A stretch of DNA of 64,000 nt from Cloeon dipterum (Eukaryota > Arthropoda > Insecta > Ephemeroptera > Baetidae). Each line of letters begins with the position of its first letter. Position 1 is the stretch's first letter. The translations under genes were made by a program, and so were the position numbers. Below the pieces are notes generated by a model. That model did not search any database and had not been told where the DNA came from. It worked only from the letters and a program-made list of their open reading frames with translations. Of the stretch, positions 3,184 through 47,900 are shown piece after piece. The DNA lies in NCBI RefSeq assembly GCF_949628265.1, contig NC_088786.1:30773681-30837680 (forward strand). Reading direction: 5' to 3'.

Positions 3184-6100
3184 TCACTCCGCCCGCTCAA
3201 CGAGTCCAGTTTATCCTGGGCGAGGACGCCGAGGAAGGAACCGGCCATGAGACGCATCCTCTCTTCTCCGAGATGGGCGAGTTGGTCCGCGAAGGGGACG
3301 ACTTCGAGTGGAAAGAGGTGAGAGCTAGTCCTGCGCGTAATCCCAGTCTAAGGCAGGTCGAGGGTGTCTTCTTGCACGGAGACGCCTCGTGGATTTATTA
3401 TTCATTCACTACAAGGAAGGGTCCTCTTACCCTCGCTGTTGGGGCGTGATTACTCTTTTATTACAGTCCAGAGAAGCCCTGAGTGTCACGAGCCACGCTC
3501 GTTTTGCCACGGAACAAGACAAAAATTCAGCCAGGGCTTAAAAGATTTTGCTCCCGCAAACAAGATTCCGTAATGATCGCGCCATTCAACAGCTGTCAGT
3601 TTCTTTTTAAGATGATTGACGTGTAAGAAAAGTGGTAGCGTCGATTTTGCTCGGCGAATCAGACGGCTAATAAAGCCGCGGTGCCTGTGTTTCTTGCCTG
3701 GCTGAAATCAATCTAGCGTGTGTGCGGCTCGTTGAGCTTCACTCTGCTGGCAAAATAGCAAACACACTTTTTGGCACATGATAGATGACGGACGCGTGAT
3801 TGGAGAGTGCGCGTCCGTCCAGCAGCCAGCTCTGGATCTAATAAAGAAGGGAATTGCAGTCCCGGATGGTTTGACACAGCAAGACTGGAGTACGGCGGCC
3901 AACTGTAAGAGGGATGGTTTCCACCGCCCACTTGATATTTCCTCTCCATCGCATCGACTTTTTCCCGTCCGCTCTCACGCTGAAGTAGCAAATTTTGCCG
4001 GCTGAGCTGAGCTGAGCGAGGACGGTGGTTCAACTGCACCCTGCTTATTTTTCTGCTAAAAGGAAAAGATGTTGTCAACGCTCAGCCAAAGGCGGTCGCA
4101 ATCTTCCTCAATATTTTTTATTTATTTCTTTTGTGAACCAACCAGATGTAAAATTAATTACCTTTTTTCTTTGTCATTTCCCAATATTTGCCTATTGTTT
4201 TTATTAACCAGGTGATTGGTCGTTTTTGCAGACGGCTCGTTGGATCAAGTTCGAGGAAGACGTGGAGGAAGGCGGCAACCGTTGGTCGAAGCCGCACGTG
4301 GCCACCTTGTCCCTGCACTCGTTATTCGAGTTGAGGGCCATGCTGTCCAGCGGCACCGTCATGCTTGACATGGAGGCCAGCAACATGGAGCAAGTGGCAG
4401 ACCTCACAATCGACGCTATGGCCTCTGCAGGCCACCTCACGCTTGAGGAGCAGAAAGAAAAGGTACAGCTTTGTTCCAATCTGCATGAATTACTATAAAA
4501 AAGCATGAATTCCCCGCAACCGGCTGTCGCAACAGTGAAATGAGAGCAACACCGTGCTTCTTGTTGCCAAATTCAATTAAACTCGCAACTATTTTCGCGC
4601 AACAGGGATCAAGGTCGGTGTAAAAATTAATGAACAAACGTGCCAGAAGAAGACATGCCCGACAATTCCGTAATTCAAGACAGAAGCAGATGCGACGTGC
4701 GCGTAAAAACAGACACCTAATTTCATCTTTGTGACTGTTGCGGCGAAATAAAAGTTTCGCTCTCGTCAGTCGCAGAAAGTCGGTAAATTCGTTTTCCAGC
4801 GCGACTGGAGTCTGAAGCAGGGCAAAGGGACCAAGTGCAGAATCCAGCTGCCGCTCTCAGTCGGGCAAAAAGGTCAAAACCAGACTTTTGGGAAAGGGAT
4901 GCCAGTGTTTTTGCTCGCTGTCAGACGTACTGGGCGCACGTAGGCGACGCAGGATTTAATTGAAAACAGCCGTTTCGCAGTGTTAAGCCCAAACGATTGC
5001 TTTTTACAAGGCTATTTTAAGGGCGAGAGTTGTCTGACGATGGAAATAATGATTTGACGCAACGCTTTGTTGGATGAAAAAGTAATACGCGGTGGTTTTT
5101 GCTCTTTTATTTTAAAGATCAAAGCTTTATCATAGTTGTTTGTTTTTAATTTATGCTCCCTGTACGCAAAATTTTTATTTCTCATTTTTATGAAATTCCT
5201 ATACTTGAGGAGGAAAATGCTGCTCTAAATTCTGCCACATGACCGATTTTCATCTCTGGCGAATTCTCTCTCCACCGATGCAGCGTCGTTATTGAATTCC
5301 AGTTCGCCGACATGGACTGATGAGTGCGCGCGTCACGTTAACGCAATAATGTCACTCGCGTATTTCACCCAGTTTTAGCTCGCAGGCGGAAACATGTGTG
5401 TGTGTCTCCCGATTGAATCTGCAGTTTCGTTTGCTGACACTCAAGTGCGCTGCGAATCGAGTCCTGACGCGTCAATACGCGCAAGAAATACACATAATAA
5501 TTGGAACTGTCGTCGGTCAGTGTCTGCAATCAATAGATGCGCACGTACAAAGTGAAGCACCAATTAATGTACACGAGCGCGTCGCTTGATTTGCTTGCGC
5601 ATTGTCGGCAGCCGAACGGAAATTCATGCTTGCCAGCCTGGCGAATTGCAAATGCAGGAACTTAATTATTGCCTCCGAGGCTTTCAAAGGTCTATTTTTA
5701 TCCTGACTCCTCGTGACTCCCTATGGAAGACCATTTTTTTATCTATCTCTCAGCATGAAATAGAGCACACAACTTAAGGAGCGTTTGTTTTCTTCTCGGC
5801 GTTTGGCAGGTGCGCGACGCCCTACTGCGTAAACACCGACATCAACACCAAAGGCGCAAGGAAGCGAGTTCGTCCAACATGGCCCGCTTACCAATCATCC
5901 GATCGCTGGCGGAGATCGGTCGCAATCATTCCTCCTCCAAAAGTGAGTAAACATAGTTTCATTTTATTCCTTCTACCTTTTCACAAAGAGCAGTCCATTT
6001 TTAGGGTTTGCCCAAAACAATTTACTTCGAAGAGTTTGGACCATTCTTGTTTCAAGTAGAACTAGATTGCCTGAACTAACAACCCCCTTTTTCAATTTGG

Positions 6101-26992: not shown

Positions 26993-33087
<6,095 letters not shown>

Positions 33088-41900: not shown

Positions 41901-44900
41901 GGAAAATCACAAGATTCACAAGGGCAACAACTGCCTCTGAACGAGAATTTATCCAAACGGCAAAAAATGGTATCTACAACATGAAAGCAGATTAATAACT
42001 AGAGTTTTGCTGTAAATTTTTAACATTAATTTAGAATATGACAGAGAAAATATCAAACTCTCAAATCGAAAAATATGTATTTTTCCAATTTATATTATTT
42101 AGTCGATCTTGTGCTACATTCAATCCAATTTAAGTATATTTTAATAGACCGTGTAAGAGTATTTGAAGAATGCGCAGTTCGTTGGCCTGTGTTAAAATTT
42201 TTCGAAAATATAAAAGAACAATTTTATTTCAACGTAGAGCAATTTAATTTTCGCTGCGCGTCGTTAGACACAAAAGCAATCAAACTGCGTGCAGCAAACA
42301 GACCATTAGCCGTCAAGTGGAGAAGCATGCAAGGTTAGAGTGTATACTATGCACTCAATTACTCGTCGTGCACACTCTAATAGTCGCGACGAGCAGCTTC
42401 CCTTCGTTTTGATCTCGCCTGTTCTGCCACTCAGTCAATGTGTCACGCGAAACAATCTTATAGTTCAAACAATAAAACTGTGCCGCGCAAAAGTCGCCGT
42501 CGTCTGTCGAGGATCAAAAACACGTCTGCGAGTACAGTTTCGGAGACAGCAGCAATCGCCTTTCCCAATAATGAAATCGCGGCCAAAGCAAAATAATGAT
42601 CCTTTGTCCAACTCCGCGTTCCGCGTACAGCTTGCGTCTCTGCTTCACTCTGAATACAAAGAATTGATCATTCAGAGCGACATGCCACATTCAATGAGGG
42701 GCGGGATGTGTGTGTGTGTGTGTGTATAGTGTGCAGGGCACAAAATAAATAAAAGAGTGCAGTGTAAATGTGGGTCGTTAGATGCGAACGAACTCACCAA
42801 ACTAAAACTGAGCCATTCCTTGCACTTCCCTATCCTGACTCATCACCAGAAATGTGCGCAGGTCGTTAAACTTTTAATTATGAAAATGTTATCAATGAAT
42901 TTTTCCAAATAATGTACAAGAAAAATAATTCGTGAACCAGCTGATGAAATTTAAAAGAATTTCGAAAGTTATTTGAAAATATTACGATTCACTATGGAAT
43001 ACGATAAATTTTTACTTTTACTTTATCAATACTTTTCAATGAATTTTGCATGGTCAAAATCAAAGAAATTATCTCTCAATCCATTTACTTTCAAATTTTC
43101 ACCAATTTCACTAATTCGCTTCATATGGACAATTCAATTATTGAATGTATTTAGTTTTAATTAGCGTTCTATATTTATGATTGTTACACTTTCCAACCTA
43201 TACTAATAACGCTACTTTTTCGTTATGCTCTACTAGTCTTTGGCGTCTTTATTCCCACGATTCCCACATTAAACTATTAATCCACGCGCACGGTTTCCTC
43301 TATTCTCTCATCGCAAATAATAGAGATCTTGGTTTTCTGACGATTATGACAAACAGTTATCACGAGTAGAGATTCTGCTGCTCGCATAATATATATGCAT
43401 TTGTCACAGTGGCGATGGACTTTAATGGATTTTTTTACACGCTCAGCGGGATTAGCAGGTTTTGATCAGCTCTAATTAACTTGCTTCGCTCCTATTTGCT
43501 TATTTGCTGCCGTCCAGAAATGCTAAGAATCAAGCTTTGCAAATTCCAAGCTTGCTCCCATAATTTAAATTAGGTGTTAATTTTTACAAAGCAACAGTTT
43601 AAAGCAGCTAAATTAGATATAGGGAAAATAACAAAAATTTTAATTAAAATCCCTTTTTACTTAAAACTAATTTAAGAGTATCTTTTTCATTTCTGTAATA
43701 CGGAATTCTGTGCCACCATATTAGCTAAATCGAATTTCTAATTCATTTGAAAATATCGGAAATCTATCAAAAAATTTTGAAATAATTTTTTATTCTCTTG
43801 TTTCATTTTAGGTGAGGATTTGGAGGTAAATCCTGACTTCCGCAGCGTTGTCCTGCAATGGGGAAGCACCCCTGAATTGAGAGACCAAGTTGAATCCGTG
43901 GAAAGAGTCGGCAAAGTGCTTGTATCCTATTGCGAACTGCAGGCCTGGGGAACCCAGAGGTGCAGGGAAAAGGTGAGAAAATTAATCCGAATAATGTACA
44001 AGAAAATTAATCAATCCGTAAACCAGCCGATGAAATTTTAAAGATTATTGAAAGTTAATTTGAAAATATTACGATTCGCTATGAAATTCTAGTTCCGTGT
44101 CCACCACTCATTTACTCTCAAAATTATAATGTTGTAGATTTTATTATTAAAATTTACAAAATGTATTATAAGGTATTAGTTAGAACGCTGTAGTGATTAT
44201 TTGAAGTGCCTACTGCCGCGCTCTACCTGTGACTCATCTCTCCGTACTGCAATGGGAAGGGAGCAACGATTGGCGCTTGCAGCGCTGCCGTGGCCAGCGT
44301 TGAAATCAGAGAGAAATATTGCCTCTTAATTTGAGTAGAAAAAGCTGAATATAAAATCGTGCATAATTAGAAAATGAATTTTATTTAATTCAAAATTTGG
44401 AAATAACTTAGATAAAATGAGTAATGAAAACAAATTAGTTGATCCGATTCAGTGAAACTAAGCATCGTTTGAAAACTCTAGCATAGCGCGACGCGAAGTT
44501 TGCTTTTTGTTCACAGTGGGTTTCTATACTAAACCATGATGAAGTTAGCTTTGCGCAGTGGCATTATCGTACCCAATGAGGTTTTACCGAGGGGCGATTA
44601 TTGCTAGTTGAAAACTAATCCCAATACCCCGTCTAGTCCTCATGAAATACTGAGGGCTAAGACAATTTTTGAATGACCCTACCGGGTCTAATGATTAAAC
44701 CCAATAATAGCCCTTGTCCCCTCAAGCTGAAGAGCACTCTGTGGATACAGATGATGCTTTTTAGATCTAAATTCCCGATTGTGACTTACACAATTATTAT
44801 TCGCCAGATATGAGTGATAGTCTGGGAAGATGCGTGATTTTTCCGTAAAGTTCACTTAACCGATTTTTTACATTCCCTACTCTCATCCCATGAAGTCAAA

Positions 44901-47900
44901 ATGTGTGCATTCAGCAGTATGAAGATGGCATTGAATATTTGAAATTTAAACTGAGCTCGCTCACCTACAATATTTTCAAGTTTTGTTTGGTTTGACTATA
45001 TTTAATAAATCGATGCACACGTCAAGTCTAGTTAAATTTAACCTCATCCTTCTTCCACCATTCTGGAAAAATAATAATGTGATGGAAGGATCTAAATCAA
45101 GTGACACCCCCCTTGGCAAGTGGTCTTCAGATTTTGATAAAATTCGGTGGAGATGTTGCCCTAGGGGACCTAAGTTGAACCCTAAAATATTAGGTGAAAA
45201 TTCCAAAAATTGCCCATTTTACAGGGGTTAAAAATTTGAGATTTTTGAAAAAGGTGATGTTTTCGGCGATTTGTAACTTTGACTCTGTTTGTGGTAAACA
45301 CAAAAATTTGGTATCCAAAATAATCTACGTTTAATGCCAAACAACTTCCCCACGACAACCAACTTCGTAGGTCAAAGGTCAAGGTCACTAAATTCGGGTC
45401 AAATTTTTCAAAAAAATCCCACATACCCTAGTACATAAAATTTTGAAAATTCAAAATAGCCAAAATGTGCCTCATATTCATGGTAACAACATATAAAAAA
45501 TTGGCGAGACTTATTTTTTTCTTTTTCGAGATATTTTGAATTGAGTGTTAAAAACCGGTGTTTTCCGGGTCTTCTGATCGCAAATAAAAACACGTTTTCC
45601 GCTTAATCTCAGCTTCTATGGGTCCGATTTAGAAAAACCGCACACCATTTGATACGTAATGACCTCCCCTAGGTAATGCAAGGGATCATAAGGGTGCCCA
45701 CCCCCTTCAAACCCTTAACCACCCCCTGGAAATCCGAAAATTTTTTTTTCAAATATTTACTCTTGAACTCGATTAATTAAGCAAAATACTAATCAAACGT
45801 GTTTTAAAATAATTAAAATATAAAATATTTTCATTTACTTTGTAGAAAAATAACTTTAAAAAAGTAAAATTGCTATTAATAAAATAATTTAAGTTTATTT
45901 TAAATATATAATTATTTTCGGTTTTTGTTTATTCAAAATAGCTGATTTTTTTATTTTTTTAAAGAATCTTAAAATATATTTAATATTCTAGAGTTTTCTT
46001 TTATTATTATAATTAAATGCAACCATTAATATTTGTTAAACCATAAGCATTTGGTGAAAATTGTGTGTTTAACAAATTATTGGTATTGGTTGCATTTATT
46101 TATATTTATAAAGAAACACTGTAAATTATAAAATATATTTTAAAATTCTTTAAAAAAAATAAAAAATCAGCTATTTTGAATAAACAAAACCCCAAAATAA
46201 TTATATATTTAAAATAAACTTAAATTATTTTATTAATAGCAATTTTACTTTTTTTAAATTATTTTTCTACAAAGTAAATGAAAATATTTTATATTTTAAT
46301 TATTTTGAAACATGTTTGATTAGTATTTTGCTTAATTAATCGAGTTAGAGAGTAAATATTTGAAAAAAAAAATTTCGGATTTCCAGGGGGTGGTTAAGGG
46401 TTCGAAGGGGGTGGGCACCCTTATGATCCCTTGCATTACCTAGGGGAGGTCATTACGTATCAAATGGTGTGCGGTTTTTCTAAATCGGACCCATAGAAGC
46501 TGAGATTAAGCGGAAAACGTGTTTTTATTTATGATCAGAAGACCCGGAAAACACCGGTTTTTAACACTCAATTCAAAATATCTCGAAAAAGAAAAAAATA
46601 AGTCTCGCCAATTTTTTATATGTTGTTACCATGAATATGAGGCACATTTTGGCTATTTTGAATTTTCAAAATTTTATGTACTAGGGTATGTGGGATTTTT
46701 TTGAAAAATTTGACCCGAATTTAGTGACCTTGACCTTTGACCTAAGAAGTTGGTTGTCGTGGGGAAGTTGTTTGGCATTAAACGTAGATTATTTTGGATA
46801 CCAAATTTTTGTGTTTACCACAAACAGAGTCAAAGTTACAAATCGCCGAAAACATCACCTTTTTCAAAAATCTCAAATTTTTAACCCCTGTAAAATGGGC
46901 AATTTTTGGAATTTTCACCTAATATTTTAGGGTTCAACTTAGGTCCCCTAGGGCAACATCTCCACCGAATTTTATCAAAATCTGAAGACCACTTGCCAAG
47001 GGGGGTGTCACTTGATTTAGATCCTTCCTGATGAATTTCAGCTTGTAAAAGCAACTCGCGCTGGCCGAGTGTTCACTGCCCAACTGAGCGGTTTGCGGAT
47101 GGCCACTAAATACACCTTCCGCGTCGCTCCCGACCCTGAAGAGCCGAGAACCATGCAAGAGGCCAGCATCCCTCTGCCTGCTGACAGTGCCACTGCTCAA
47201 ACAAAAGGATGTGAGTTGCCATTTAGACATTTAGTGTTAAACAAAAAACGCAATTAATTGGCTGAAATATTATAGTCTCTGCGAGAGCCACTCAATGTCT
47301 TGCTAACAGCACTGAGGTCGAGGTGGACACTGGCCCCTACTTCGGAGGAAGAATTTCAGTTGAGAGCCTCGGAGGACAGCCCGGAGAAATTTCCCCGGCT
47401 TCAGACGACGAATGTAATTTCACTTTTATCTTTTAGTTTTGATGTGAATAATGAAATGGTTTAAAATTTCCGCAATAGATTTTCTGCAGCAAAAAAATAG
47501 GCTTCGCCTAAATTTGTATTATCAGTGGTTAAAGGGTATAGAACAATTTACTAACGTTCTTTAATATACGACAGTGAATGTTTATGTTTAAATTAAAACT
47601 CCGCAGCTTCCTCCTGCTCGGTTTGGGGCAACGCTAATAGTCCGCAGAGCACCTACAAACTCCGATTCGACCACAACATCTGCGGAGGCACCAAGGCGCT
47701 AAATGAGTCAGCAGTGGCCACGTTTCTGCTTGTCCAAGAAAACCTGCCCATTCTGACGCACAGTACCCGGCGCTTCCTCGTCTTGTGCACTGCCCAGCCT
47801 GACACACTGACCGTCTCCGCTGGGTAAGATCCACTTGATTGGCAAAGCCAAAGAGCCCTCACTGTGAACTTCTCCTTTTCACAGAATCAGTCTTCCTGGA

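Follow-up and report, generated by a model that had tools for sequence, protein, structure and literature searches.

The window that we analysed, a stretch of 64,000 nucleotides of Cloeon dipterum DNA, contains at 45084-47028 an inverted repeat of 1,945 bp (Table 1), the sole pair reported when the full window was scanned for inverted repeats (minimum length 30 bp, exact seed of 14, partners no more than 5 kb apart). Its ungapped arms (45084-46028 and 46084-47028) are 945 nt long and 97% complementary, while the gapped arms measure 960 and 962 bp, are 96.8% identical and make up 1,922 of the 1,945 bp, leaving the short middle of a foldback element. The preliminary description of a near-perfect foldback of about 1.95 kb that has no coding capacity of its own was therefore accurate, except that the spacer, put there at 25 bp, is 23 bp in the gapped alignment; TGAT, which it read as the outer flank on both sides, is exact on either side of the element and acts as a target duplication. 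Tandem Repeats Finder (score 50) reported no array within 45084-47028. Each arm carries three tandem AGGTCA half-sites (AGGTCAAAGGTCAAGGTCA, at 45369-45387 and 46725-46743), which we take to resemble nuclear-receptor response elements; the half-site stretch is also present in the related coding element L053 and is apparently altered in a second one, L054, judged by the translation of the latter. Elsewhere in the window, several short arrays of 18-bp repeats (27995-28519) are perhaps coding, 18 being a multiple of three.

Table 1. Features of the foldback element and its surroundings, in window coordinates
Feature	Coordinates	Strand	Remarks
Predicted host intron, 3,069 nt	43973..47041	+	phase 0/0, in frame by reading
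Left target-site duplication TGAT	45080..45083		
Left foldback arm	45084..46043	+	
Outer left arm, subfamily-A ends	45084..45513	+	groups with cognate coding element
Foldback-lineage core (both inner arms and spacer)	45552..46560		from transposase-upstream end of coding element
Central spacer, 23 bp	46044..46066		
Right foldback arm	46067..47028	-	
Outer right arm	46599..47028	-	same subfamily-A ends
Element terminus with branch-point-like TTGAT and short CT-rich stretch	47005..47028	+	putative function
Right target-site duplication TGAT	47029..47032		

The element is likely to be intronic, in a predicted intron of a predicted gene. Subtracting the element and one target-site duplication leaves a putative intron of 1,120 nt, and only 13 nt separate the end of the element from the 3' splice site. 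In the element terminus, the branch-point-like A of TTGAT precedes the final acceptor base by 26 nt; another branch-point-like motif, CTGAT, extends into the duplication at a distance of 10 nt. In the reconstructed empty site (69 nt examined) the only such motif is 51 nt away and now lies beyond the insertion. Splice signals now in use may thus have arrived with the element itself. The joined exons matched Pfam below the curated cut-offs only (fn3, 14.3 bits against 25), and Pfam and PDB together gave weak fn3-like hints for the host gene. The same putative intron holds a U4 snRNA gene or copy (44547-44687, +; Rfam RF00015, 129.5 bits) about 400 bp before the element, on the strand of the host gene. 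The very long hairpin that had been expected on transcription agrees with the predicted RNA fold, which has 939 pairs, perfect stretches of up to 283 pairs and -1524 kcal/mol; the inner part of the element was folded separately too.

A genome-wide search with one arm had been proposed, an absence of related copies being named as counting against the preliminary description; searching the genome of the species itself (190 Mb in 10 contigs, the five contigs met being 33-43 Mb), we found at least 78 arm matches with E values no higher than 0.001. Allowing a single mismatch at most, a scan with a degenerate 18-bp pattern of the ends hit 113 places (55 + 58) versus 1 for a reversed control. Sixty loci were fetched by region, 44 of them (L009-L052) in a first set and then 16 (L053-L057, L068-L078). 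Both ends were located in 36 of the 44 first-set loci, with an exact 4-bp duplication in 32 of these 36, and L053, L054 and L055-L057 had one in 5/5, which makes 37 exact duplications among 41 two-ended elements, the window copy included. The remaining four are L012 and L047, with three matching bases beside the ends, L014, whose terminus is altered, and L039, which has one mismatch. The 37 exact duplications, from which alone the target consensus was built, are AT-rich with a weak consensus ATAT and symmetrical A/T preferences flanking them. Such duplications of constant length at dispersed sites mark a non-autonomous cut-and-paste DNA transposon. L055-L057 (883, 1,160 and 1,625 bp) are internally deleted foldbacks that retain both ends and their duplications. 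Recent movement is evident from the most similar pairs of foldbacks, which are 99-100% alike; the nearest relative of the window copy is 99.0% alike.

Some of the fetched sequences stand apart from these complete copies. Among L068-L078 arm homology was present in 9/11; L069 and L078 had the end motif alone, blastn against the arms and coding elements finding nothing beyond the 18-bp motif in the approximately 970 bp fetched, and the motif may there belong to different elements that have just the termini in common with this family. In L035 a 71-bp segment (3253-3323), about 500 bp past a complete foldback, is 75% like arm positions 519-589 and is perhaps the relic of an older copy. Since U4 adjoins the window copy, we considered a target preference for small-RNA genes but obtained no support for it: in an Rfam scan of 40 loci from the 60 fetched (L009-L048), each with roughly 0.8 kb of flank or more, the window copy was the only one with such a gene. 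Viral or bacterial relatives did not turn up: viral contigs had no match to the exact end or arm patterns, transposase alignment found no relatives in viral contigs and genome contigs, and two degenerate motif scans picked out 8 and 2 contigs, on which tblastn gave one chance stretch (E 0.62).

Two pairs of family ends lie 4 kb apart and delimit coding elements, L053 (4,003 bp, duplication AAAT, terminal inverted repeats (TIRs) of 764 bp that are 99.7% alike) and L054 (3,987 bp, duplication ACAT, TIRs of 715 bp that are 100% alike). The foldbacks have their terminal inverted repeats in common with both, so the ends, in which no familiar transposon had been recognised at the outset, are those of a family that also has coding members in this genome. 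The stop-to-stop frames are 619 codons in L053 and 621 codons in L054, and the two main frames are 80% identical, with dN 0.105 and dS 0.66 (NG86, 613 codons; dN/dS near 0.16) or dN 0.107 and dS 0.54 by YN00, as expected if the protein has been under selection. A short upstream frame that starts with MGR and has several Cys occurs in both, and in L053 a putative 68-bp GT-AG intron would fuse it in-frame with the main frame. The frames had no relevant match in Pfam or among the solved structures of PDB, and we therefore read the enzyme from the anatomy of the elements. D392, D476 and D517 of the L053 frame are kept in L054 (a comparison of two sequences only, 80% alike), and their order, by reading of the two frames, would suit a DDD enzyme, the triad looked for in a Sola transposase, although two such similar sequences make this a weak indication. 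Presumably, the protein resembles that of Sola2.

By their anatomy, the coding elements appear to resemble Sola transposons. Sola elements, as described in the parts of PMC10741241 and PMC3627910 used here, have 4-bp target duplications and TIRs of 11-1124 bp, and are mostly 2-9 kb long (PMC10741241); the 4-bp AT-rich duplications, the 4-kb coding elements and the TIRs of 764 and 715 bp fall within these ranges. The AWWT duplication of some Sola2 families fits only 8 of the 37 exact cases (hand count). Galileo of Drosophila, a member of the P superfamily, has long TIRs, TIR-only copies, TIR1-F1-F1-TIR2 structures and chimeras, for which conversion was proposed (PMC3573991, as excerpted). Galileo shares with our foldback the long TIRs, the TIR-only copies, the recruitment of inner sequence into the TIR and the chimeric copies, but its duplications are 7 bp, as in the P superfamily, against 4 bp here, our transposase frames have no THAP or P-element match, and its chimeras, as far as that excerpt describes them, combine two unlike TIRs without matching duplications whereas ours have ends of the same type on both sides. 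Tetris of Drosophila virilis likewise consists mostly of long inverted repeats without coding capacity; according to the excerpt of PMC4079207, it has 8-10 bp duplications, tandem repeats in its TIRs and no coding partner found, unlike the 4-bp duplications, the lack of an internal tandem array and the two coding partners here. Duplications of 4 bp also differ from the 8-10 bp of Mutator-type foldbacks. MITEs are similar in being non-autonomous, with ends common to a coding element and AT-rich targets, but the length limit of about 800 bp given in the consulted part of PMC5199201 contrasts with a near-complete palindrome of 1,945 bp. Within a limited literature search, transposon databases lying outside it, there was no match to the end sequence or transposase motifs, and a Sola foldback was not found, which says little given that coverage.

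When the arms were compared with the coding elements, positions 1-649 matched both ends of L053 at about 92%, and the inner arm matched the transposase-upstream end only (L053 812-942, at 72%); on the upstream side of L054 the match extends to arm position 942, at 83% overall. Both arms contain a TTATTATAAAT..GCAACCA-like stretch, which in the coding elements is located just before the start codon. We conclude that the promoter end was duplicated in inverted orientation to give the two arms. An origin of the palindrome from the two unlike ends of a coding element was rejected, both inner arms aligning with the upstream end only. The centres of the two foldback types, A and B, look homologous by eye, which suggests a single origin.

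The arms of these palindromes evolve in concert, most strongly at the outer ends in subfamily A. We analysed 35 of the 44 first-set loci, complete or nearly so (28 A-type, 7 B-type), and excluded L023, L024, L027, L028, L039, L040, L043, L049 and L050 as incomplete. Within elements the arms were 97.4-100% identical in the outermost 690 columns and 83-93% identical closer to the centre, the lowest values coming partly from misalignment since the innermost columns of the half-element alignments include the spacer. As a concerted fraction, we set the columns in which arms agree within elements but elements differ against the columns in which arms disagree. For the A-type this fraction was 0.75, 0.78, 0.76 and 0.71 in columns 1-600 and, beyond column 600 towards the centre, 0.61, 0.59, 0.35, 0.42 and 0.14 (901-950), as computed from 378 non-independent pairs of the 28 elements. 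Between A and B types it lay at 0.87-0.97 as far as column 700, at 0.74-0.90 in columns 701-900 and at 0.35 in columns 901-950, part of which signal may stem from the end exchange described below. The B-type (n = 7) gave, from the outer end to the centre, 0.73, 0.70, 0.33, 1.00, 1.00, 0.57, 0.88, 0.90 and 0.00, without a clean gradient (0.33 at 301-450, 0.88-0.90 at 801-900). The two arms of an element formed an exclusive clade in 18/35 elements over columns 1-650 and in 8/35 over columns 690-900, and those of the window element did so in neither range. Arm differences near the centre are common to several copies, so the palindrome predates the copies. Of the recent origin or ongoing conversion that had been read from the arm similarity, there are signs of both, but the similarity is not simply a matter of youth, the outer arms of this older palindrome being kept alike.

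The arms are also mosaic: their outer approximately 435 bp group with the cognate coding element, while the inner arm groups foldback with foldback. In columns 1-670, 24 sites, none beyond column 435, place a foldback type together with the coding element of its own subfamily (cognate sites), and 9 sites unite both foldback types, all at or after column 475, with 1 crossed site (Mann-Whitney p 1.4e-5). Over the whole arm there were 27 cognate, 19 foldback-uniting and 5 crossed sites (p 5e-6), and tree support was 0.999 for the cognate split in columns 1-400, and 0.964 (431-670) and 0.884 (671-955) for the foldback split. The window element alone, with either arm set against L044 or L051, gave nearly the same mosaic in all four comparisons (23-24 cognate, 10 foldback-uniting and 3-4 crossed sites; one cognate site at 670 in one comparison). 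Divergence of the left arm from the cognate coding element was 3.0-5.8% at columns 1-435 and 14-20% at 475-670. Ends and core are of the same type in the 35 elements (56 arms A/A, 14 arms B/B), on which the A and B site classes were themselves defined. L050, a diverged fragment, represents one locus and one arm and is B-type at 8/9 terminal sites; between columns 61 and 435 it is a mixture (6 A, 7 B, 2 other), and its core is A-type at 34/39 sites (33/39 on realignment). The diverged B-type loci L068, L072 and L073 have B at 9/9 terminal sites and are mixed at 61-435. These patterns suggest that foldbacks originally had B-like ends, and that A-type ends were a later acquisition of the lineage with the A core.

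We hold it to be highly probable that the element is a Sola-like foldback that arose by duplication of an upstream end, is moved in trans, has arms that convert each other and has exchanged its outer ends with coding elements. Its arms derive from an inverted duplication of the end that lies upstream of the transposase frame in a 4-kb cut-and-paste element of Sola-like anatomy, and they stop just before the start codon. The transposase of coding relatives elsewhere in the genome would then bind the foldback ends and move the element, leaving 4-bp duplications; the two similar arms would undergo gene conversion against one another, chiefly towards the termini, and the outer 435-475 bp would have been swapped with those of coding elements, giving the foldback the ends of its cognate coding subfamily. 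More tentatively, and with somewhat less than an even chance of being right, we suggest that a foldback takes over, by exchange of the outer 435-475 bp, whatever ends an active coding element has at the time, and that arm conversion copies the captured end across, starting a new wave of copies.

Other readings of the palindrome itself fare poorly. Long palindromes are generally prone to assembly artefacts, and a wrongly joined hairpin read could have produced one, but the many copies with distinct flanks and duplications, together with near-centre arm differences that are shared between copies, leave this a negligible chance. A hairpin RNA locus used by the host, in which Dicer-2 or ADAR acting on the 939-pair dsRNA keeps the arms matched, would suit the predicted hairpin within a putative intron; we consider it very unlikely, as the same anatomy recurs at dozens of sites with their own target duplications and the family explains the palindrome.

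With regard to the mosaic, the likeness of the outer arms to the cognate coding element could reflect parallel selection on transposase-binding ends instead of exchange, and within the outer 660 columns it is indeed the first 50 that differ most between subfamilies (16-24%), a pattern that diverging enzyme binding would produce. Yet 15 of the 24 cognate sites are beyond column 60, the switch between columns 435 and 475 is abrupt, and the divergence of the left arm from the cognate coding element rises there as given above, so that parallel selection appears improbable. The exchange could also have run in the reversed direction, the coding A element acquiring its ends from A-type foldbacks. This we judge unlikely, though the least so of these alternatives: in the outer arm the A-type foldbacks are not a clade apart from the coding A element, and foldbacks outnumber the two coding elements found, whereas L050, with an A-core and B-type ends, indicates that the A-core lineage apparently changed its ends at some time, an argument that leaves room for a second, opposite exchange.

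The element is of a known kind, a foldback and non-autonomous DNA transposon, and it is as a variant that it is worth following up, for its coding partners, the promoter-end origin of its arms, their graded concerted evolution and the switch of ends. The coding partners set it beside Tetris, for which none was found according to the excerpt of PMC4079207. The authors who described Galileo proposed, in the part of PMC3573991 drawn on here, that recombination and conversion are drawn to long TIRs, which would thereby favour the emergence of new subfamilies. For the question why some unrelated transposons carry very long inverted repeats, the genome of C. dipterum offers a direct test, with a palindrome whose end switch is located, a diverged locus (L050) that looks like its precursor from before that switch, and a pair of candidate enzymes with open frames. 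The copy in the window, if intronic as predicted, is a natural setting in which to study how a gene copes with a 2-kb hairpin 13 nt from a splice site. Further, if end capture is true, the family would exemplify a transposon parasite that keeps pace with the host enzyme by acquiring two matching ends at once.
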